From: Arcicella aurantiaca
GTDB lineage: Bacteria > Bacteroidota > Bacteroidia > Cytophagales > Spirosomataceae
Assembly: GCF_003148625.1 (NCBI RefSeq)
Contig: NZ_QGGO01000029.1
Coordinates: 1 to 64,000, forward strand
DNA length: 64,000 bases
Direction: 5' to 3'
This document shows, piece by piece, positions 1 to 19,123 of the stretch (position 1 is the first letter of the stretch; each line of letters begins with the position of its first letter). The notes beneath the pieces were generated by a model, which was given only the letters and a program-made list of their open reading frames with translations, was not told the DNA's origin and made no database searches. The position numbers and the translations under genes were made by a program.

Positions 1-3000
1 CTTTTGTCAAACTTAAATCTGACTGTTTAGGCGTGATTGTCGCACTTCCTGTATCATCTTGACCATCGGTTGTGCCAGAATTTGGTTGAGAATCAGGGTC
101 GAATTGGTCAGATTTTGAGACTTCTGCACTATTCACTACGGACAAGGCTGTCCGTACTACACCTACAAACGTGAATACTTTTGGAGTACCTACCGCAATA
201 CTGCCTACTGTTGCCGTCAATGTTCCATTTACATTGGTAAAATCGGAACCGCCAGGCGTTCCTGTACTCACAAACGTAATTCCCGCAGGTAAAACGTCTC
301 TTACCTCCACATTCGTTGCCGTACTTGGTCCTGCATTGCTTACCGTAATGGTATATATTACGTTATCGCCAACATTAGGCGTTGTATTTGAAACGGATTT
401 CGTCAAACTTAAATCTGCTTGCTGACCGTTCAAAGAAACTGCTCCTACATCATCCTGACCGTCTTCTGTTCCACTACCTACTTGACTATCTGGGTCGAAT
501 TGGTCGGATTTTATGATTTCTGCTTTGTTCGTAATTGTACCAGAAGCAGTGATTTTGGATTTGAATTTTAATGACGCTGAACCATTTACAGGAATAGTTG
601 CTATATTATTTGACAACAATACGCCCGAAGTATTCACGAAATCCGTGCTACTTGTGAACTGTAAACCCGCAGGTAGAATATCTTTTACCTGTACGTTGGT
701 TGCGGCATCTATTCCTGCATTATTCACCAACAACGTAAACTCCACTTCATCACCTACATTAGCATTGGCATTGCTCACAAATTTCTGCAAACTCAAATCC
801 GCTACACGCACTCGCACGCTTGTACTATCTGTATCATCTTCACCGTTTAAAATTCCATTGTTTGGTGATGAATCTGGGTCTGGAACACTACTGGAGGTAA
901 TTTGTGCATTGTTTGTAATTTTACCTGTACCAGTCACTTTTGCAATAAATTTCAAAGCCTGACTTTGTCCTACGCCTAAGTTTGAAACTTGTCCAATTAA
1001 TGTTCCATTGGTATTAGCGAAAGTACCTGAACTCACAAAAGTCAGACCTGACGGTAATACATCACGCACACTTGCAGAGTTTACGGCGTTTGGTCCTGCA
1101 TTGGTTACAGTTATTGTAAATTCTACCTCTTCATTTGGATTAACAACTGCTTTATCAACCGTTTTAACCAAACTCAAATCGGCTAAAACACCTCCTACGG
1201 TGATTTTATCGGTATCATCTTCGTTGTTTGCTGTACCGTTATTTACCTGAGAATCTGGGTCAAATTGGTCAGATTTCGTAATTTCTGCCGCATTGATAAC
1301 ATTTCCTGCTTGTGTTAATTTTGCCGTGAAAGTCAAATTTTGCGTTACACCTGCCGCCAAACTTGGAATGGTAGCAGTCAATGTTCCTGCATTATTGGTA
1401 AAATTTCCTGCATTTACCAAACTCAAACCTGCTGGTAAAATATCTTTCACTTCCACATTGGTTGCGGTTGATGTACCTGCATTACTTACCTGAATGGTGT
1501 AAGTGATATTATCGCCCACATTTGCCGATAATGGCGTTGCTAATTTCTTCAAACTTAAATCGGCTACTTGTGGGGAGATGCTAACATTTCCTGTATCATC
1601 TTGTCCATCTTCTGTGCCTGTATTTGGTTGTGAATCTGGGTCAAATTGGTCAGATTTTGAAACTTCTGCACTGTTTACTACGGACAAGGCTGTCCGTACT
1701 ACACCTACAAAAGTCAAGATTTTGGGTGTTCCCACAGCAACTGTCAAATTACTTGCAGTTAATACTCCTGAGGTATTTATAAAATCTGTACTTCCGATAA
1801 ATTGTAAGCCAAATGGCAATAAGTCTTTCACCTCCACACCAGTGGCAATAGAAGGCCCTGCATTATTTATGGTAATGGTATAAGTTATTGTTTCGCCAAC
1901 ATTTGGTGATGTGTTTGATACTGCTTTTGTCAAACTTAAATCTGCTTGCTGACCACCAATTAATACGCCACCTGTATCATCTTGTCCATCTTCCGTCCCT
2001 GTATTTGGCTGTGAATCAATATCATAAACATCCGATTTACTAATTTCAGCTTTGTTTAGAATAGCGACAGGTTGTGTAACCTGTGCTACGAAAGTAAGTG
2101 TTACAATGCCTCCTGATGAAATCGTTGGGATATTATTTGAGAATAAAACGCCCGATGTATTGATAAAATCGGTACTGCTAACGAAGGTCAAACCCGTTGG
2201 TAAAACGTCTTTTACTTGAACATTAGTTGCGGCATCTATCCCTACATTTTTAACCGTTATTGTGTAAGTGATATTTTCGCCTACGTTTGGATTGGTTTTA
2301 GAAACGGCTTTCGTCAAACTTAAATCGGCTGTTTTGGGCGTAAGTATTGCATTTCCTGTATCGTCTTGACCGTCTTCTGTTCCTGTATTTGGTTGTGAAT
2401 CTGGGTCGAATTGGTCACTCTTACTTAGTTCCGCTTTATTGACTACGGACAAGGCTGTCCGTACTACACATACAAATGTCAGTGTTTTTGTTCCAACGGC
2501 TAAACTGGCAATTTGCGAAGTTAATGTGCCGTTTAAGTTCGAGAAATCAGGACTTGAAACGAATGATAAACCTGTTGGCAAAATATCTTTTACCTCCACA
2601 TTGGTTGCAATACTTGGTCCTGCGTTGGTTATGGTAATGGTATAAGTTACATTATCACCAACGTTTGGTGCGGCATTTGAAACCGCTTTTGTTAAGCTCA
2701 AATCTGCTTGTTGACCACCAATCAAAACACCGCCTGTATCATCTTGTCCATCATTTACGCCTGTATTAGGCTGTGAATCTGGGTCGTATTGGTCGGATTT
2801 ACTTACTTCGGCTTTGTTTAATACAGACTGGGCAGTCTGTACTACTGCCACAAACGTAAACGATTTTGTTGCTCCAACGGCTATTGCTCCCGCCGTTCCT
2901 GTCAATGTTCCCGAAGTATTCGTTAAATCACTTGAACTTACAAATTGTAAACCTGCTGGCAACACGTCTTTTACCTCCACATTGGTCGCAATATCTGGCC

Positions 3001-5796
3001 CTGCATTGGTTACATTTATCGTATAAGTTATGTTTGAATTAACATTCGGAGCGGTATTAGAAACCACTTTTGTCAAACTTAAATCTGACTGTTTAGGCGT
3101 GATTGTCGCACTTCCTGTATCATCTTGACCGTCGGTTGTGCCAGTATTTGGCTGAGAATCAGGGTCGAATTGGTCGGATTTTGATACTTCTGCACTATTC
3201 ACTACGGACAAGGCTGTCCGTACTACACCTACAAATGTTAATACTTTTGACGTACCCACTGGAATATTGGCTACTGTTGCGGTCAATGTTCCCGAAGTAT
3301 TGGTAAAATCTGTACTTGAAACAAAATTGATTCCCGCAGGTAATACGTCACGAACTTCCACATTGGTAGCAACACTTGGCCCTGCATTGCTTAAGGTAAT
3401 GCTATACGTGATATTATCTCCAACATTTGGTGAGGCATTTGAAACCGCTTTTGTCAAGCTCAAATCTGCTTGTTGTCCACCAATCAAAACACCACCTGTA
3501 TCATCTTGACCATCTTCTGTTCCTGTATTTGGTTGAGAATCTGGGTCAAATTGGTCGGAAGCTAAAACTTCTGCTTTGTTCAAAATACTTCCTGCTTGCG
3601 TAACCGTTGCTACGAAAGTCAATACTTTTTGTCCGCCCGCAGTGATTGATGGAATGTTGTTAGAAATTAATGTTCCACTTGACAGACTAAAGTCTGTGCT
3701 ACTTACAAAGGTCAATCCCACAGGCAATACGTCTTTTACTTTTACATTGGTCGCATTATCCGTTCCTTTGTTCGTAACCGTAATCGTATAAGTAATATTT
3801 TCGCCAACATTTGGATTGGTTTTAGAAACCGTTTTGGTCAATTCCAAATCCGCCTGACGAACTCGAATTGCTTCGTTTTCAGTATCATCTTCTCCATTAT
3901 CCGTTCCATTGTTTGGCGTAGAATCAGGGTCTGGTACGTCGCTACTTGCAATTTGTGCTTTATTGGTAATTATTCCTGTACCCGTCACTTTCGCTTGGAA
4001 AGTGAAAGCTACGTTTGTATTTGGTTGAAGATTAGTAAATGTTCCCTGTAAAATTCCGTTGTTATTTATCAGCGTTGACGAACTTACAAATTCTAAACCC
4101 ACTGGCAAAGCATCAGACACCGTTCCTGTTGTTACCGCATTTGGACCAGCATTAGAAACCGTAATGGTAAACGTAACCACATCATTTGGATTCACGACCG
4201 AATTATTAACGGTTTTCACCAAACTTAAATCAGCTAATTTTCCTGCTACGGTAATATTTCCTGTATCGTCTTGTCCGTCGGTAGTTCCTGTATTTGGTTG
4301 AGAATCTGGGTCATATTGGTCAGATTTTGTTACTTCTGCTCCATTTTTCAATGCTCCCGATGCTGTAACCTTTGCTATATACGTTAATGTTTTTGAAGTT
4401 CCCGAAGCAATGGTTAAACCACTTGTTGTCAATTGTTGTCCCGAAGCCGTAAAATCACTACTTGATACAAATTGTAAACCTGCTGGCAACAAATCTTTTA
4501 CCTCCACATTGGTAGCAGTATTTGCTCCTGCATTGCTTACAATAATCGTATAGGTTACATTATCGCCCACATTTACCGATAATGGAGAAGCATTTTTCAC
4601 CAATGATAAATCGGCAGTTTGTATAGTTAAAGGAGCATCGTCAGTATCGTCCTGACCATCAGCAGTTCCTGTATTTGGCTGAGAATCTGGGTCGTATTGG
4701 TCGGCATTTTTTATTTCTGCTTTATTATTTATTGATAAAGCTGTACTTGTTGCAGGAGTTAAAATCTTTGCTGTAAATGTTAAATTGATTGGCGTTCCAA
4801 CTAAAACGGTTAATGGCGTTGTGTTGGTTAACGTGCCTAATGTATTAGTGAAGTTAGTTGATGAAACAAATTGTAAACCCGTTGGTAAAATGTCTTGAAC
4901 CGTCACATTAGTTGCCGTTGAAGGTCCTGCATTTGAAACCGTAATGGTATAAGTTACAATATCCCCTACATTTGGATTCACATTCGATACCGATTTTTGC
5001 AAGCTCAAATCTGCTTGTTGACCACCAATCAAAACGCCTCCTGTATCATCCTGACCGTCTTCTGTACCTGTATTTGGTTGAGAATCTGGGTCATATTGGT
5101 CAGATTTTGACACTTCTGCTTTATTCAAAATACTTCCTGCTTGCGTAACCGTTGCTACAAAAGTTAAAGTCGTTGAAGCCCCCGACGCAATCGAAGCAAT
5201 ATTATTTGACAATAACGTTCCTGATGTGTTGGTGAAATTTGGAGCGGCAGGCGTTCCTGATGAAACAAACGTTAAACCCGTTGGCAAAATGTCTTTCACT
5301 TGCACATTTGTTGCCGTTGAAGGTCCTGCATTTGAAACCGTAATGGTATAAGTGATATTTTCTCCTACATTTGGGTTCGTTTTTGAAACCGTTTTTACTA
5401 AACTTAAATCCGCTTGTTGGGCATTAATATCTACCAAACTTCTATCGTCTTCGGTATTGGCAGTGCCATTTCCGTGCGGTGAATCCAAATCTGGTTGGTC
5501 AGCTTTGGATACCTCCGCCGCATTGCTTGTCACACCTGCTAATAAAACTTTGGCAACAAAAGTTACTGAGGCTGAACCATTTACCGCAATGCTTGAAATC
5601 GTTCCTGTTAATGTTCCTGCAACATTTGTTAAAGTCGAAGAACTCACAAATTGTAAACCTGCGGGCAAAACGTCCTTCACTTCCACATTGGTAGCGGTGT
5701 TTGGCCCTGCATTATTTACCGTAATGGTATAAGTAATATTCTCACCAACATTTGGAGTTGTTTTTGAAACCGTTTTGGTCAAACTCAAATCAGCCT
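1..5796 (-). repeat. Tandem DUF11-type modules (15 complete plus one partial)
   Basis: Fifteen head-to-tail units of about 381 bp each encode DLSLxK, NVGxNxTYTIxVxNAGP, LPAGLxFVSS and SKSDQxDPDSxPN motifs. Module starts fall near 5796, 5410, 5005, 4615, 4235, 3850, 3465, 3085, 2705, 2325, 1940, 1560, 1180, 800, 415 and 20. Several inter-module linkers alternate between a GGVLIGGQQ type and an ITPK type. DUF11 modules are extracellular beta-sandwich spacers in bacterial surface proteins. DNA similarity between modules is high enough to suggest amplification or gene conversion. Confidence 0.85.
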
Positions 5797-13084: not shown

Positions 13085-13200
13085 GTAGGATTTAGTTGTT
13101 GGGCATTAGTGTTGGCACTCCCTGTTAATCAAAATATTGTAACATAGTCAAACATAATCGTAGCGGCAAACCGCTTAATTCTTACCAATACTTATACCCC

Positions 13201-13272
13201 AAATAAAAAGAGCAATTATGCCGCCACACAATTGCTCCTTTTATTTGAGCGGGCAGAGCCGCCACTCTACCC
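13201..13272. promoter_or_regulatory. Tandem hairpins with CCGCCA loops (copy A)
   Basis: Hairpin 1 (13201-13246) has two 20-nt arms with two mismatches around loop CCGCCA at 13221-13226. Hairpin 2 (13251-13272) has 8-nt arms with one mismatch around the same loop at 13259-13264. Hairpin 1 could serve as terminator of purU, but the pair recurs at 16985-17049 in front of the paralogous regulator. A shared G-rich stretch follows at 13393-13411 (GGGGTGACAAAAGGGGGAC); the paralogous region has a close copy at 17175-17191. The rest of 13085-13521 is AT-rich with no convincing gene. Confidence 0.65.
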
Positions 13273-13521
13273 AACTCCAGTAAAAGATAATGAAATAATC
13301 ATCTTTACTCTTTTAGTTAAATTACACTTTCTGTAATCATAAATAACTTAAATCAAAGTTAATTGTATTACCTCTAAATACCTCCATCTGATGGGGTGAC
13401 AAAAGGGGGACTTCTATCATTTTTTTACAAACTTTAAAATCAACATTTCGCTTATCTCTAAATTACTTCATTTAAAACAAGAGCATATTTTCTGGTATTA
13501 TTTCAACCTTTCGTTTTGAAT

Positions 13522-15270
13522 ATGAAATGTTTTTTAACGTTCCTATCTATGCTTCTATGTAGCATAAGTAGTTCTGCTTATTATCAGTCAATTGATAGTA
13601 TCAAAACGGTATATCTCAATGCAAAAGGCAATATAAAAATCGAGGCATCGATAGATTTTGCCCGTAAACTACCTCCTCCCGACTCTTTAAAAGCTATCTT
13701 TTTATTCAGAGAAGCTTTATCTCAATCACAAAAAAATAAATATCCTCAAGGCGAAATCAGGGCTAATCATTGGTGGGGTTGGTATTATTTTGAAAACTTA
13801 CATAACCCCAATAAAGCCATTCCACTATATCGAAATGCCATCAATTTGGCACTGAAACATAAAAACTATGATGAGGCGTTTTGGGTATATGCCATCCTAA
13901 AAGATGTTCATGTATTTTTATCAGATTTTACAACTGCGATTAATGTGCTAAACGAAGAAAAAGATTTCGTTGAAAAAGCTAACCTGCATACATATTTACC
14001 TCCTATTTATGCAGGTTTACTCCAATGTTATGGAGGTGTGGGAGATTTCAAAAAAGCAAACGAAACCTTTAACGAAGGAATGCTTTTATCAAAACAAATT
14101 GACGACTTACACACTATTTGGTTACTGCTCACAACGATGTCAGAGATAAAACTTCAGCAGAAAAACATAAATCAAGCTCTTGCATATCTGAATAAAGCCA
14201 TTGAAGTAGGTATCAAAACAAAAGAATACTATAATGTTCTGAACTTACAGTCGAAAGTAAATTTATTGATAAAGTTAAATCAACTCACCCAAGCAGAAAC
14301 CTTGTGTAGGAGTATCCAAAAAAGAATGTCAACCATCGAATCTTTTGAATTTGTAGGGACAAACAACGCCTCATTAGGAAATATTTATTTGGCTCGAAAA
14401 GATTATGGAAATGCCCTAAAATATTCATTAGACTCTTACAAAGAAACACTCAAAGCAGGCAATGAAGAGAATCTGATAAAATTGGATAGTACCTTATTTA
14501 TTATCTACAAAAAATTAGGAGATTTTGAAAACGCCTTCAAGCATAGCAGTCATTTTATAGAACTCAATGAAAAATTACTTTCAAAAGATAAAATCAAGCA
14601 GTTTCAAAATGTACAATATCGCCACTATATGGATAAAAAACAAAAACAAATTGAGGCAGAACAACGAATTAAACAGGCATATATTCTGATTTCAATTATC
14701 TTGTTTTTAACGCTGATGCTCGGAACGATTGTTTTTATCATTACCCAGAAAAATAGCGAACTCAAAGTAAAACTGTTGAACGAAACCACTAAAAATGAAG
14801 AACAAATTAGAGAGAATATGCAATTTGAAATGGAAACCCAAACCCGAGAACTAACTTCTATGGCGATGGCTATCGACCAAAAAAATATCCTTTGGAAAAA
14901 CGTTCAACAAAAATTAAAGGAAACACTGTCGGCAATGCCCTCCATTTCGGAACAAGAAATTAAATCTATCTTCAAAATCATTTCTCAAGATAATGATAGC
15001 CAACACGAATGGGACACTTTCAAACTTCACTTTGAAAGCGTCCACCCTCAGTTTTTTACTACTTTAAGTCAAATAGCCCCTACTCTTACACAATTGGAAC
15101 TACGTCAGTGTGCGTACATCAAAATAAATTTAGCTCCCAAACAAGTGGGTAACTTACTGAATATCACGCCTGATTCTGTCAAAAAATCACGTATGAGAAT
15201 TAAGAAAAAACTCAATTTATCCACAGAAGACAATTTGTCTAAATTTATAGCTAATCTAAAAATGGCTTAG
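13522..15270 (+). CDS. TPR - transmembrane - LuxR-type HTH regulator (paralog A)
   Basis: The chosen ATG at 13522 gives 582 residues starting with a clear signal sequence (MKCFLTFLSMLLCSISSSA); an in-frame TTG two codons upstream is less likely. Residues about 40-375 are tetratricopeptide-like helical repeats (KAIPLYRNAINLAL, ALAYLNKAIEVG, ALKYSLDSYKETL). A single membrane segment follows at about 390-412 (ILISIILFLTLMLGTIVF). Then comes a coiled coil (about 415-470) and a C-terminal HTH of LuxR/sigma-4 type (LTQLELRQCAYIKI ... KQVGNLLNITPDSVKKSRMRIKKKL). Topology predicts periplasmic TPRs and a cytoplasmic DNA-binding domain, i.e. a one-component membrane regulator. It is closely related in sequence and order to the protein at 17378-19123. 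Target genes and ligand are unknown; the amidohydrolase between the two paralogs is a candidate. Confidence 0.85.
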   Translation: MKCFLTFLSMLLCSISSSAYYQSIDSIKTVYLNAKGNIKIEASIDFARKLPPPDSLKAIFLFREALSQSQKNKYPQGEIRANHWWGWYYFENLHNPNKAIPLYRNAINLALKHKNYDEAFWVYAILKDVHVFLSDFTTAINVLNEEKDFVEKANLHTYLPPIYAGLLQCYGGVGDFKKANETFNEGMLLSKQIDDLHTIWLLLTTMSEIKLQQKNINQALAYLNKAIEVGIKTKEYYNVLNLQSKVNLLIKLNQLTQAETLCRSIQKRMSTIESFEFVGTNNASLGNIYLARKDYGNALKYSLDSYKETLKAGNEENLIKLDSTLFIIYKKLGDFENAFKHSSHFIELNEKLLSKDKIKQFQNVQYRHYMDKKQKQIEAEQRIKQAYILISIILFLTLMLGTIVFIITQKNSELKVKLLNETTKNEEQIRENMQFEMETQTRELTSMAMAIDQKNILWKNVQQKLKETLSAMPSISEQEIKSIFKIISQDNDSQHEWDTFKLHFESVHPQFFTTLSQIAPTLTQLELRQCAYIKINLAPKQVGNLLNITPDSVKKSRMRIKKKLNLSTEDNLSKFIANLKMA

Positions 15271-15410
15271 CTGTTAAGGAAAGGGATTAGGATTTAGTAT
15301 CACCATGAGTTTGATTATTAATGACTTATCAAATTTCAAAATATAGACTAAATTTGCAACATTTAAAAGAAAAAACGGTCTTTCAGTAGTCCTGTTTTTA
15401 TGGAATATTT

Positions 15411-15589
15411 ATTAGACTTCCTGCGAAAGTGTTTTAAGTCGTAAAACAACATCTTTTCGGCTACAAATAGCGAAAATTTTTCAAGATTGGGCATCCCCCA
15501 TTTCTCTGCTATGCTTTCAAAATTCCCGCTATTTTCACTCGAAAATATACCATTTTTCAATCATAAAACACTTTCGCAGGAAGTCTAAT
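15411..15589. mobile_element. MITE-like element, 179 bp, 26-bp perfect terminal inverted repeats
   Basis: The ends ATTAGACTTCCTGCGAAAGT... and its reverse complement match over 26 bp without a mismatch. The interior has no coding capacity of substance and contains a second nested inverted repeat (AATAGCG / CGCTATT). A shorter relative lies at 16793-16868, just after the amidohydrolase. Such elements are usually mobilised by a full-length insertion sequence elsewhere in the genome; none is present in the window. TA or TTA may be the target duplication. The rest of 15271-15640 holds no gene I can support. Confidence 0.75.
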
Positions 15590-15640
15590 TTTTAAAATAT
15601 CTTCAACATAAACTCTTTCTTTAGCCAAAAAATAACACGA

Positions 15641-16783
15641 ATGAAAAAAACACTTTTTACCTCTCTCATCGCCTTGGGAACAATTGTACCAACGTTGGCT
15701 CAAAATGTTAAAATTGGTGATAATAATGGTACCATAACTTTTGAAGAATACGAACCTAAATCAACATTGGTTGTACCTCAACATTCTGTAAAAAAAGCAA
15801 AATTTCCTTTTATTGATGTCCACAACCACCAATGGGAAATGGAAAGTCCAGAAAAAGTAGCCAAACTTGTGAAAGAAATGGACCAACTCAATATGGGAAT
15901 GATGGTTAACCTGAGCGGACGTGGTTGGGGTGCTGACGAAGCAAGAAGTAACGCAACGTTATACAATCAAATAGAATTTACCAAAAAGAATTATCCAAAT
16001 CGCTTTACTATTTTTACCAATGTTGACTTCTCGAAAATGGATGAAGCGGGTTGGACAGAAAAAGCGGTGGCTAAATTGAACGATGACGTAAAAAATCATG
16101 GAGCAAAAGGATTAAAAATCTATAAAAGTCTTGGCTTTAGTGTAAAGGATAAAGATAAAATTGTACCTGTGGATGACCCAAGAATTGACCCAATTTGGGC
16201 AAAATGTGGCGAATTGGGCATTCCCGTAATTATTCACACGGCTGACCCTGCTCCTTTTTGGCAACCTGTGGACTCGTACAATGAACGTTGGCTTGAATTG
16301 AAAACTCATAAAGAACGTAAAAGAGAAACCAACAAAGGGGATTATTCTTGGGAACAATTGATAGAACAACAACATAACGTTTTCAGAAAACACCCTAAAA
16401 CGATTTTTATTAATGCTCACATGGGTTGGTATCCGAACAACTTGGCAAAATTGGATAGTTTAATGGACGTATATCCAAATATGTATGCTGAAATTGGGGC
16501 GGTTATTGCCGAGTTGGGACGTCAGCCAAGAGCTGCTAAAAAGTTCTTCGAAAAACGTCAGGATAGGGTATTATTTGGGAAAGACTCTTACATTCCAGAT
16601 GAATACGAGACCTACTTTAGAGTTTTAGAAACGGAAGACGAATATTTCCCTTATCATAAAAAATATCATGCCTTCTGGAGAATGTACGGAATTGGATTAT
16701 CCGATGAAATTCTAAAAAAGATATATTACAAAAATGCGTTAAAAATTATTCCAGGCTTAGATAAAAGTAAATTTCCTGAGTAA
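15641..16783 (+). CDS. Secreted amidohydrolase-2 family metal-dependent hydrolase
   Basis: The 380-residue protein starts with a signal peptide (MKKTLFTSLIALGTIVPTLA, cleavage before Q21) and so acts outside the cytoplasm. It folds as an amidohydrolase TIM barrel: FIDVHNH gives the HxH metal pair (H61, H63), followed by GLKIYKSLGF, IPVIIHTADP (His), FINAHMGWYP (His) and LFGKDSY (Asp), matching the order of metal ligands in Amidohydro_2 (PF04909) enzymes. Members include decarboxylases and hydrolases, so the substrate cannot be named. The gene is flanked by two MITE-like elements and then by two paralogous membrane regulators, and it is followed by a strong terminator at 16884. It is probably monocistronic. 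Confidence 0.8.
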   Translation: MKKTLFTSLIALGTIVPTLAQNVKIGDNNGTITFEEYEPKSTLVVPQHSVKKAKFPFIDVHNHQWEMESPEKVAKLVKEMDQLNMGMMVNLSGRGWGADEARSNATLYNQIEFTKKNYPNRFTIFTNVDFSKMDEAGWTEKAVAKLNDDVKNHGAKGLKIYKSLGFSVKDKDKIVPVDDPRIDPIWAKCGELGIPVIIHTADPAPFWQPVDSYNERWLELKTHKERKRETNKGDYSWEQLIEQQHNVFRKHPKTIFINAHMGWYPNNLAKLDSLMDVYPNMYAEIGAVIAELGRQPRAAKKFFEKRQDRVLFGKDSYIPDEYETYFRVLETEDEYFPYHKKYHAFWRMYGIGLSDEILKKIYYKNALKIIPGLDKSKFPE

Positions 16784-16792
16784 TTTTTTCAT

Positions 16793-16868
16793 TAGACTTC
16801 CTACGAAAATATTTTAAGTCGTAAAAAACATCTTTGTTCAATCATAAAATACTTTCGTAGGAAGTCTA
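16793..16868. mobile_element. MITE-like element, 76 bp, internally deleted relative of 15411-15589
   Basis: The ends TAGACTTCCTACGAAAATA / TACTTTCGTAGGAAGTCTA form terminal inverted repeats with one mismatch over 24 bp. The inner flanks (AAGTCGTAAAA...ACATCTTT and TTCAATCATAAAA) match the 179-bp element in the same orientation, but about 100 bp of centre is missing. The element begins nine bases after the amidohydrolase stop codon. Confidence 0.75.
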
Positions 16869-16883
16869 TTGCCAAAAACACAT

Positions 16884-16930
16884 AAAAAGTCTCGTTAAAG
16901 AAATTCTGTATTCTTTAACGAGACTTTTTT
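16884..16930 (+). terminator. Strong Rho-independent terminator after amidohydrolase
   Basis: A perfect 19-bp stem (16884-16902 with 16911-16929) closes an 8-nt loop and ends in a run of Ts. It would stop transcripts from the amidohydrolase and insulate the downstream regulator. Because the left arm starts with As, it may work in both directions. Confidence 0.85.
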
Positions 16931-16984
16931 ATGTTGAACCCGTTTATAGCTTTATGGAAACTTCGTAGTTTTAAGACTAAAAAT

Positions 16985-17049
16985 AAGCGATAGTGCCGCC
17001 ACACTATCGCTTCGTTGAATTTAGTAAGTAGAACCGCTACTCTACATAC
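16985..17049. promoter_or_regulatory. Tandem hairpins with CCGCCA / CCGCTA loops (copy B)
   Basis: Hairpin 1 has a perfect 11-bp stem (16985-16995 with 17002-17012) and loop CCGCCA. Hairpin 2 (17024-17049) has 10-nt arms with two mismatches and loop CCGCTA. Compared with copy A at 13201, stem sequences differ but pairing and the loop are kept. The pair precedes the second TPR-HTH regulator, and the G-rich stretch GGGGACAAAAAGAGGAC follows at 17175-17191. The rest of 16931-17377 is AT-rich without another gene. Confidence 0.65.
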
Positions 17050-17377
17050 TCAATCGAAAAATGGTTAAGTCAAAGATAACTGCTCCCCCAAACCACCTAC
17101 GATTGTTAAATCAAATTTATATTATTCAAATGGTGAAAATCAATATTTAGTAGGGTACAATTAGGGGAAATACAGGGGACAAAAAGAGGACAGGTAATAT
17201 ATTGCCTCATTTCATTCTCTAAAAACAACTATAATCCACTCATTTACAAACACTTAACACTTAAAGACCTATTCCATCAAATTATTTCGTATTTTTTTGG
17301 AAATTTTTTAGTATTTATCGAACTTACTTCTGACATGAATAATGTCAATAATTTCTTGCAATCCCATACTTAAATTT

Positions 17378-19123
17378 ATGAAATACCTAAGAATCATTCC
17401 TTTTATCCTGTTTTTTTCGTCTTCAGGGTTGGCTCTAAGCACAAAAGATAGTTTATTTCAAGTCTATCAAAAAGCTGAAGGAAACAACAAAATTAACGCT
17501 GCAATTGAATACGCCCGATACTTGGCACCTCCTGATACTGTAAAAGCGTTGAACCTATTAATCCATTCGATAAAACAAGCTCAGCTAAATCAATATGACC
17601 TCGGAGAGATAAAGGGCATTCATTATTTAGGTTGGTATTATATGGAACATTTACATGAAAAAGAAAAGGCGGCACAACTTTATAAAAAAGCTTTGAGTTT
17701 GGCTCTTGAAACAGAATTTTATGATGAAACCTATGCCATTTACACACATTTGATAGATGCTTATTTGTTTGTAGGCGAAACCATAGAGGCATTTGATATG
17801 CTCAATGAAGCACGAACATTTGCTCATAGAACCCATCCTGACAAATACCTACCCATTATTTATTTTCAATTAATGGAATACTATTCTTATTTTGAAAATT
17901 ACAGTGAAGCATACTTGGTATTTAATGAAGGGGTAAGAATTTCAAAAAGAACGAACAATATTCATGGTTTATGGCTCCTATACTCAACGATGGCTGAAAC
18001 AAAAAGGCGTGAAAAAAAACTAAATGAAGCACTTGAATATTTGGAAAAAGCAATTCCGCTTGGCATCAAAAATAAAGAAACTTGCTCTATCTTGAATTTT
18101 CAAGAAAAGGCAAATATTCTTATTCATTTAAATCGGTTGGATGAAGCAGAAAAACTATGTTTAAGTATTCAAAAAGAAGTTGAAAAAACACCTGCTTTTG
18201 ATTTTGTAGGCAGTATAAATACCTCTCTTGGGCTTATTTATTTGGCTCGTCATGAATATTCAAAAGCATTAGTATATACACTCAAAGCTTATAAAGAAGT
18301 ATCAAAAACAGGGAATTCTGAAAATTTATCAGAACTTGAAAATACTTTATCTAAAATCTATTATAAAATAGGCGATTACAAAAAGAGTGTTGAAGCTCTA
18401 AAGAATTATCATAATCTTAAAGAGAAACTTTTTTCAAAAGAAAAAGTGAAAAATGTCCAGAGTTTACAACACAGATTTGATTTAGAAAAAAAACAACTTC
18501 AGTTGGATGGAGTGGAAGGTAGCAGACGCCAATATCTAATTTTATCAGCAACCTTATTTTGTGTATTGGGTTTGGTGGTTAGAATGCTCTACATAAAACA
18601 AAAGAACAATTTATTAAACCTTAAATTATTAGATGAAACTGCAAAAAATGAAGAGCAAAAGCGTGAAAAAATGCAATTTGAGATTGATAATAATATCCGA
18701 GAATTGACTTCTATGGCGATGGTTGCTGACCAAAAGAATGTTCTTTGGTTAAATATTAAGCATAAATTAGAAGAAAAACTTCAAGAGATGCCCAATATCT
18801 CAGAAAGTGATAGTAAAGCAATTTTAAAAATTGTCTCTCAAAATACTGAAAATCAATACGAATGGGATACGTTTAAAATTCATTTTGAACAAGTTCACCC
18901 TCAATTTTTCACCATTTTAAGTCAGCTTTCTCCCAATCTTACACAATTGGAATTACGGCAATGTGCTTACATCAAAATCAATCTTAGTCCCAAACAGGTC
19001 GGGAATTTACTCAATATTACCCCTGACGCTGTCAAAAAAGCACGTATGCGAATCAAAAAGAAACTCAATTTATCAGCAGAAGATAGCCTCAGTAAGTTTA
19101 TTACTACTATTCATGAAGCTTAA
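17378..19123 (+). CDS. TPR - transmembrane - LuxR-type HTH regulator (paralog B)
   Basis: I place the start at ATG 17378, giving 581 residues that open with a signal sequence (MKYLRIIPFILFFSSSGLA). The in-frame ATG at 17342 would add 12 residues in front and spoil it, and the paralog has 582 residues with the same layout. Order of parts: signal peptide, TPR-like repeats to about residue 375 (KAAQLYKKALSLAL, ALEYLEKAIPLG, ALVYTLKAYKEV), one membrane segment (YLILSATLFCVLGLVVRML), a coiled coil, and a C-terminal HTH (LTQLELRQCAYIKINLSP, KQVGNLLNITPDAVKKAR). The last 170 residues are nearly the same as in paralog A, which points to duplication. The likely role is a membrane-bound one-component regulator; the signal is unknown. 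A bidirectional terminator follows at 19140. Confidence 0.85.
   Translation: MKYLRIIPFILFFSSSGLALSTKDSLFQVYQKAEGNNKINAAIEYARYLAPPDTVKALNLLIHSIKQAQLNQYDLGEIKGIHYLGWYYMEHLHEKEKAAQLYKKALSLALETEFYDETYAIYTHLIDAYLFVGETIEAFDMLNEARTFAHRTHPDKYLPIIYFQLMEYYSYFENYSEAYLVFNEGVRISKRTNNIHGLWLLYSTMAETKRREKKLNEALEYLEKAIPLGIKNKETCSILNFQEKANILIHLNRLDEAEKLCLSIQKEVEKTPAFDFVGSINTSLGLIYLARHEYSKALVYTLKAYKEVSKTGNSENLSELENTLSKIYYKIGDYKKSVEALKNYHNLKEKLFSKEKVKNVQSLQHRFDLEKKQLQLDGVEGSRRQYLILSATLFCVLGLVVRMLYIKQKNNLLNLKLLDETAKNEEQKREKMQFEIDNNIRELTSMAMVADQKNVLWLNIKHKLEEKLQEMPNISESDSKAILKIVSQNTENQYEWDTFKIHFEQVHPQFFTILSQLSPNLTQLELRQCAYIKINLSPKQVGNLLNITPDAVKKARMRIKKKLNLSAEDSLSKFITTIHEA

Follow-up and report, generated by a model that had tools for sequence, protein, structure and literature searches.

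The window analysed here is the 64,000-nucleotide stretch at the start of contig NZ_QGGO01000029.1 of Arcicella aurantiaca, and our subject is a tandem hairpin element that lies in it upstream of each of two paralogous genes for TPR-membrane-helix-turn-helix (HTH) regulators. A first-pass annotation had described four hairpins, two per locus, with the fixed hexaloop CCGCCA, or CCGCTA in one of them; all four are present, and their plus-strand loops indeed read CCGCCA three times and CCGCTA once. Judging from the sequence, two paralogous small RNA genes, W1 and W2, most likely lie in the window, divergent from the regulator genes. The hairpin element would form the 3′ part of W1 and W2, each RNA ending in two hairpins, the last of which would be the terminator. 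The features concerned are the following (nt, nucleotides; aa, amino acids).

13200–13347, minus strand: W1, candidate small RNA gene of ~148 nt; 5′ end placed by the −7 box, 3′ end by the terminator
13354–13361, minus strand: TAACTTTG, candidate −7 box for the W1 promoter; ATTTAA follows it, as it does in W2 (promoter scan)
13251–13272, minus strand: first hairpin of W1, loop UGGCGG at 13259–13264; a C·A mismatch of the plus strand is U·G here
13200–13247, minus strand: second hairpin of W1, putative intrinsic terminator, loop UGGCGG at 13221–13226, tail TTTTTATTTG (inverted repeat, by eye)
13393–13411, no strand assigned: G-rich/C-rich motif of the first copy, situated between W1 and regulator 1 and a candidate operator; the W1 −7 box lies 31 nt downstream of it
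13516–15270, plus strand: TPR-membrane-HTH regulator 1, 584 aa from TTG at 13516, with an ATG at 13522 (open reading frame, Pfam TPR families)
16975–17105, minus strand: W2, candidate small RNA gene of ~131 nt; ends placed as for W1
17112–17119, minus strand: candidate −7 promoter box of W2, TAAATTTG, followed by ATTTAA (promoter scan)
17026–17047, minus strand: first hairpin of W2, loop UAGCGG at 17034–17039 (fold, loop listing)
16985–17012, minus strand: second hairpin of W2, putative intrinsic terminator, loop UGGCGG at 16996–17001, tail ATTTTTAGTC (terminator scan)
17173–17191, no strand assigned: G-rich/C-rich motif of the second copy, situated between W2 and regulator 2 and a candidate operator; the W2 −7 box lies 53 nt downstream of it
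17342–19123, plus strand: TPR-membrane-HTH regulator 2, 593 aa, sharing ~50% identity with regulator 1 (open reading frame, Pfam TPR families)

The hairpin element and its strand

Over 66 nt, the two copies of the element can be aligned gap-free with 73% identity (offset 3775), with a loop-to-loop spacing of 38 nt within each hairpin pair. Two-sided changes are found at 4 of 22 aligned stem pairs, three in the first hairpin and one in the second, and pairing is kept in 88.6% of the cells of this two-sequence alignment; 30 of 500 shuffles reach four two-sided changes and 13 of 500 reach 88.6% pairing. The earlier statement that stem changes keep pairing holds for these two-sided changes but not throughout, since some stem pairs are broken when read on the plus strand. 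The regulator paralogues are identical at 294 of 578 aligned residues and at 17 of 48 fourfold third positions. Judging from the sequences, the duplication around the hairpins is old, and the 66-nt block would thus have been conserved beyond drift, unless it was copied later.

A covariance model of the paired-hairpin element built from the two window copies (R1) matched, in its own genome at E up to 10, only these copies and their reverse strands; the element is therefore not a repeat family. This supports the earlier view of a structured RNA whose stems covary while the loop is fixed, distinct from a plain repetitive extragenic palindromic (REP) element. That no described family fits was borne out as well: Rfam 15 gave no match at its gathering score in the window, and all matches listed in permissive Rfam scans of 13085–13530, 13180–13440, 16940–17230 and L062:11500–14000 were below it. 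The GibS model RF04182 scored 27.9 bits (cut-off 115) on the minus strand at 13203–13327 in one run and was unlisted there in another. Literature searches on the element turned up no description.

If a hairpin works as RNA, transitions should leave G·U, not A·C, on the transcribed strand, and all four non-Watson–Crick A·C pairs of the window hairpins are G·U on the minus strand. The predicted fold of W1 (13195–13278) reaches −48.4 kcal/mol on the minus strand (z −9.1) versus −27.3 kcal/mol on the plus strand, that of W2 (16968–17054) −27.3 versus −23.5 kcal/mol. Both second hairpins consist, on the minus strand, of a G+C-rich stem followed by a T-run; the terminator scan lists that of W2 on both strands (minus with ATTTTTAGTC, plus with CGTTGAATTT), while that of W1, unlisted by the simple scan, was judged by eye and has T-rich tails on both sides. 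The motif TANNTTTG, which we take to be the Bacteroidota −7 box consensus, has a background of 0.78 per kb per strand and occurs four times in the two intergenic regions, always on the minus strand. The boxes at 13361 and 17119 have TAANTTTGATTTAA in common and precede the first hairpins of W1 and W2 by 81 and 64 nt. Since wobbles, U-tracts, folding energy and promoter boxes all point to the minus strand, W1 and W2 are best regarded as separate small RNA genes, predicted to be transcribed away from the regulators, and the initial proposal of a cis element of the TPR-membrane-HTH mRNAs most likely does not hold.

Relatives of the hairpins

To our own-genome searches we applied R2, a covariance model of the single hairpin, and R3, a model of 12 own-genome hairpins that was also run on other genomes (38 in all); both were trained on hairpins already seen, so that their matches lean to the CCGCCA loop. 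R2 gave ten matches at E up to 10, namely the four known hairpins, four new ones with the same loop and other stems (E 3e-5 to 0.03; contigs C2, C8 twice and C13) and two weak ones. R3 matched 15 of the 38 genomes at E up to 0.5: our own, six of the seven from the same genus and eight of the remaining 30. Its matches at E < 0.002 fall in five genera (g1, g11, g14, g18 and g24), all of the same family, and in other families 1 of 13 genomes matched, at E 0.1. Matches at E 0.09–0.46 in G049, G122 and G138 were dismissed as chance, being inside open reading frames or without a hairpin by the stem rule, as were own-genome R3 matches on C19 (in an open reading frame) and C4 (in an open reading frame without a scored hairpin). 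R1, run on 222 family genomes, matched 19 at E up to 0.1, and those inspected were other hairpins or terminators.

In 464 kb of the own genome, CCGCCA on a stem scoring at least 4 was counted 10 times in noncoding sequence, whereas each of 29 permuted hexamers was seen once at most; every one of the 10 comes from a stretch selected for such a hairpin, and 17 other stretches (340 kb) have none. The six-base loops on stems of at least 6 in the same 464 kb number 238, and CCGCCA is the commonest with 5, in loci chosen for it. Between loci that share the loop word (units A, B, C and D, described below) the stems are unrelated. Protein searches of genome contigs for named homologues confirmed none.

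A conserved locus with complementary loops

At the C8 site, an intergenic region contains ten CCGCCA/TGGCGG words, the majority within inverted repeats. It is conserved in eight genomes of three genera (our own and G002, G003, G005 and G007 of the same genus, G152 of g24, G116 and G117 of g11), with a glycogen branching enzyme-type gene and a short-chain dehydrogenase among its neighbours. On the minus strand of L062, three units follow each other in the order C, B, A. Unit A has three UGGCGG-loop hairpins, the last a terminator, and exactly one TANNTTTG box near its 5′ end in 8/8 genomes. Unit B carries as many as five CCGCCA/CCGCUA loops, together with a terminator-like stem in which one G·U pair is invariant. 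In unit C, aligned for five genomes, four carry two or three UGGCGG loops and one carries one UGGCGG and one UAGCGG. Over the eight genomes, the A segments contain 22 TGGCGG, 1 TAGCGG and no CCGCYA, and the B segments contain 26 CCGCCA, 4 CCGCTA and neither TGGCGG nor TAGCGG. Stem pairs changed on both sides amount to 10/19 in A and 11/42 in B, numbers that none of 500 shuffles reaches, these shuffles ignoring relatedness; sliding the 3′ side of the stem gives at most 2 (A) and 5 (B) such changes.

A 29-nt core of B (L062 12633–12661 and orthologues), which contains GGCGG, is identical in all eight genomes and may be a target-binding seed. A search for a 31-nt B core, allowing 3 mismatches, covered 390 genomes of the order, a sample that left out most members of the own genus; it gave four genomes, which all belong to the own family and match exactly. 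An exact core scan of viral contigs gave no match, nor did plasmid searches. In genus g11, a gene with an M20 dimerisation domain (peptidase-like; Pfam on the G117 copy) sits between A and B, which are therefore probably separate RNAs. A single giant RNA with internal kissing loops was rejected, given this gene and the terminator-like 3′ end of B itself.

The wobble test was extended to 70 hairpins, listed by hand and omitting the lost G003 loops and some weak-stem sites (such as hairpin 2 of A in G117 and two B sites in G152). Counts of G·T/A·C pairs on the CCGCYA strand are 0/4 for W, 0/6 for A, 1/5 for D, 0/1 for C and 22/0 for B; a looser rule gives W 0/4, D 1/5 and B 21/0, and its counts for A and C are taken up in the Discussion. 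Taken together, W, A, C and D have 16 of 17 such pairs in favour of the UGGCGG strand (22 of 32 by the looser rule). Orthologues are not independent here, and the own genome alone yields 5/0 for B and 0/4 for W. Because of these counts, we place B on the CCGCCA strand and A, D and W on the UGGCGG strand, so that B would expose CCGCCA and the others UGGCGG, the strand of C being unsettled. Folding energy is lower on the proposed strand for A in 8/8 and for B in 7/8 genomes, the exception being G152 (−116.0 vs −116.6).

RNA D and further candidates

D is a candidate short RNA with a UGGCGG-loop terminator beside a DtxR-type repressor gene (Pfam on two loci). Nine loci of three genera have its hairpin, CCTAACAAAG-loop-CTTTGTTAGG, with differing stems and an unchanged loop; the stretch inspected at one of them (G006 C133) has no DtxR-type gene. 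The T-run lies on the UGGCGG strand, and TANNTTTG precedes the stem-loop by 34–48 nt in 9/9 loci. The alternative that the CCGCCA hairpin is a 3′ untranslated region of the DtxR-type gene was rejected, since the U-tract is on the other strand. In L116, L119 and their orthologues, the DtxR-type repressor beside D carries a FeoA domain and an NRAMP-type transporter gene lies nearby; a link of D to metal uptake is possible.

Further candidates were noted by eye. Those with CCGCYA loops are F (G005, G007) and G (G152), while UGGCGG loops are found in H (G117, G152) and in a D-like RNA (G123, L126). A lone CCGCTA-loop hairpin lies directly before a strong terminator at L064 5444–5477 (C13).

Regulators, G-rich motif and other repeats

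In regulator 1, transmembrane and LuxR-like HTH parts were assigned by eye; Pfam gave TPR families and no HTH match. At E 1e-40, no regulator homologue was found in seven same-genus genomes, and 221 other family genomes contain four distant ones. The CCGCCA hairpin pair is absent from the stretches inspected for these four, one of which is not the upstream region. Most relatives of the element adjoin other genes, so that its association with TPR-HTH regulators, as first noted, is not general.

The G-rich motif that had been reported to follow the hairpins is present ~121 and ~126 nt past the second hairpin in copies 1 and 2; on the minus-strand assignment, it instead lies upstream of the candidate promoters, its distance to the box being 22 nt greater in copy 2. 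In the window alone, two matches with at most 3 mismatches also occur in 31 of 100 shuffles and are thus not unusual. With at most 2 mismatches, GGRGACAAAARGRGGAC has three matches in the 5.93-Mb genome (the two window sites with 0 and 1 mismatch, another with 2), and the reversed-pattern control has two.

Several other repeats were observed. Positions 13150–13195, beside W1, have three further genome copies (L002, L003, L004; 85–89% identity); by eye, the similarity of this dispersed repeat, which has a small GC-rich palindrome, reaches back to ~13100. Two stretches resemble miniature inverted-repeat transposable elements (MITEs): 15411–15589, with 26-nt perfect terminal inverted repeats 127 nt apart and a part also in L068 near 5641, and 16784–16877, a shorter copy with 33-nt arms (88%). 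Four copies of the hairpin TACGGAC-AAGGCT-GTCCGTA lie in 137–3222 (loop starts 144, 1686, 2451 and 3210), with a variant at 2829. In genus g29 (L033, L036, L038, L039, L046), hairpins with loops other than CCGCCA and conserved stems lie, by eye, between FecR-type and TonB-receptor/SusC-type genes, as tandem pairs in L036 and L046.

Discussion

The loop words UGGCGG and CCGCCA are exact complements, and on the strands assigned by the wobbles this complementarity holds between two transcripts. Because two conserved complementary loop sets, of opposite senses, stand side by side in one locus, we consider it fairly probable that W1 and W2 are minus-strand small RNAs of a loop-word set that kisses a complementary set, with B as a sponge. 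One set would comprise A, D, W and probably C and H, with unrelated stems and the one loop word UGGCGG (UAGCGG in one W hairpin); the other, B and probably F and G, would expose the complement CCGCCA, or CCGCUA, which still pairs by G·U. The two sets would recognise each other by loop–loop kissing, for which hexamer duplex energies of −9.9 (CCGCCA/UGGCGG), −7.6 (CCGCUA/UGGCGG) and −6.0 kcal/mol (CCGCCA/UAGCGG) were calculated. B, with up to five loops, would sponge the UGGCGG RNAs, and its competition would set the amount of these RNAs free to act on mRNA targets. The regulator beside W1 or W2 may control them through the G-rich motif. In support of kissing, the UAGCGG that G003 has in both A and C is matched by CCGCUA in its B, as if by one coordinated loop change. 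While the hairpins and their loops, the conservation and covariation, the strand-specific wobbles, the terminators and the promoter-like boxes can be read directly from the sequence, transcription, kissing, sponging, mRNA targets and control by the regulator are inferred.

Several observations weigh against this proposal. Such loop–loop covariation is limited to the one case of G003, a genome that has also lost one A loop and two B loops; our own W2 has a UAGCGG loop, yet our own B has no CCGCUA, and in g11 the B loops changed while the A loops did not. B lacks TANNTTTG at its presumed start, where a TGGCAY..TTG motif is found instead. The looser wobble rule gives 4/13 for A and 5/3 for C, hence the unsettled strand of C. 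For W2, the energy gain of the minus strand is only 3.8 kcal/mol, and the z-scores (−3.7 minus, −4.5 plus) favour the plus strand. The W promoters are consensus matches, two further TANNTTTG sites (13156 and 17078, both minus) are left unexplained, and W1, W2 and their regulators were not found in the relatives searched. Finally, CCGCCA near 355 gene starts is not enriched beyond permuted hexamers (1, 4 and 3 occurrences).

Among other explanations, the loops could be bound by a protein, in the way that CsrA binds GGA loops, the UGGCGG RNAs being regulators or targets, the many-looped RNA a decoy and the complementarity to B secondary. One fixed loop on many unrelated tandem stems does resemble protein-titrating RNAs such as CsrB, but UGGCGG contains no GGA, and protein sites do not account for the exact reverse complement that B has on the strand of its own transcript (22/22 wobbles); we regard this explanation as unlikely, if still worth keeping in mind. 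More doubtful still is that UGGCGG is merely a favoured terminator loop of the clade, without a partner, W1 and W2 then being small RNAs or terminators of the ordinary kind. A UGGCGG terminator stands at the end of each of W, A and D, and the predicted fold closes the loop as a U·G pair around GGCG; however, several of the loops sit on non-terminator hairpins (A1, A2 and the W first hairpins), B has CCGCCA loops on the other strand, and the 238 six-base loops of the own genome are diverse.

The cis leader of the TPR-HTH mRNAs on the plus strand that was first put forward would suit the location upstream of both regulator genes and the covarying stems, but the strand evidence speaks for the minus strand and the relatives of the element are mostly not before such genes, which leaves it very improbable. 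As for a repetitive mobile element, REP or MITE, there are two similar copies 3.8 kb apart and other dispersed repeats close by; instead of many copies of one sequence, though, R1 finds two with their reverse strands, and the stems are unrelated between loci, so that this explanation is close to refuted.

Going beyond kissing with B as sponge, one may tentatively envisage an RNA-only recognition code, in which the UGGCGG hexaloop is an address on unrelated small RNAs and a few CCGCCA hub RNAs collect them by kissing, although we would not call this the probable outcome. If so, one conserved hub, B, would link the amounts of many regulators to each other, among them two RNAs associated with membrane-bound TPR-HTH sensors. 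To our knowledge, small RNAs of Bacteroidota outside Bacteroides are little described, and many small RNAs with one loop address and a complementary hub RNA would be a compact, testable case that raises the question whether a six-base kissing contact alone can organise a regulatory network. Our study provides models and locus coordinates for B, with its 29-nt core identical across three genera.

How does this arrangement compare with known systems? In titrating RNAs of the CsrB/RsmZ type, one RNA carries many hairpins with one shared loop word. The loop word here differs from the repeated GGA of those hairpin loops, being UGGCGG/UAGCGG or CCGCCA/CCGCUA, and here a complementary RNA set exists. 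LhrC1–5 of Listeria (PMC4132741) are several small RNAs under a dedicated regulator, LisRK, and each repeats its recognition motif in its hairpin loops, that of the terminator among them; a parallel to CsrB-like protein-titrating RNAs is also drawn there. Control by the adjacent regulator is, in our case, a guess. The LhrC copies are homologous and their CU-rich motifs bind mRNA, whereas here homology joins W1 to W2 but the stems of A, B, C and D are unrelated; the loop word is UGGCGG, and its complement is found in the loops of a second RNA. CJnc190/CJnc180 (PMC8687705) are alike in that a neighbouring RNA is complementary to the small RNA and antagonises it, but that pair is antisense-encoded with extensive complementarity, while A and B lie side by side on one strand and are complementary only through short loops. 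GibS of Bacteroides (RF04182; PMC7366714) is likewise an intergenic Bacteroidota small RNA with two middle hairpins and a terminator, but it pairs through a single-stranded 5′ seed. None of LhrC, CJnc190/CJnc180, CsrB and GibS is known to combine unrelated RNAs that share one hexaloop with a set that carries its complement, the combination proposed here for W1, W2 and B.

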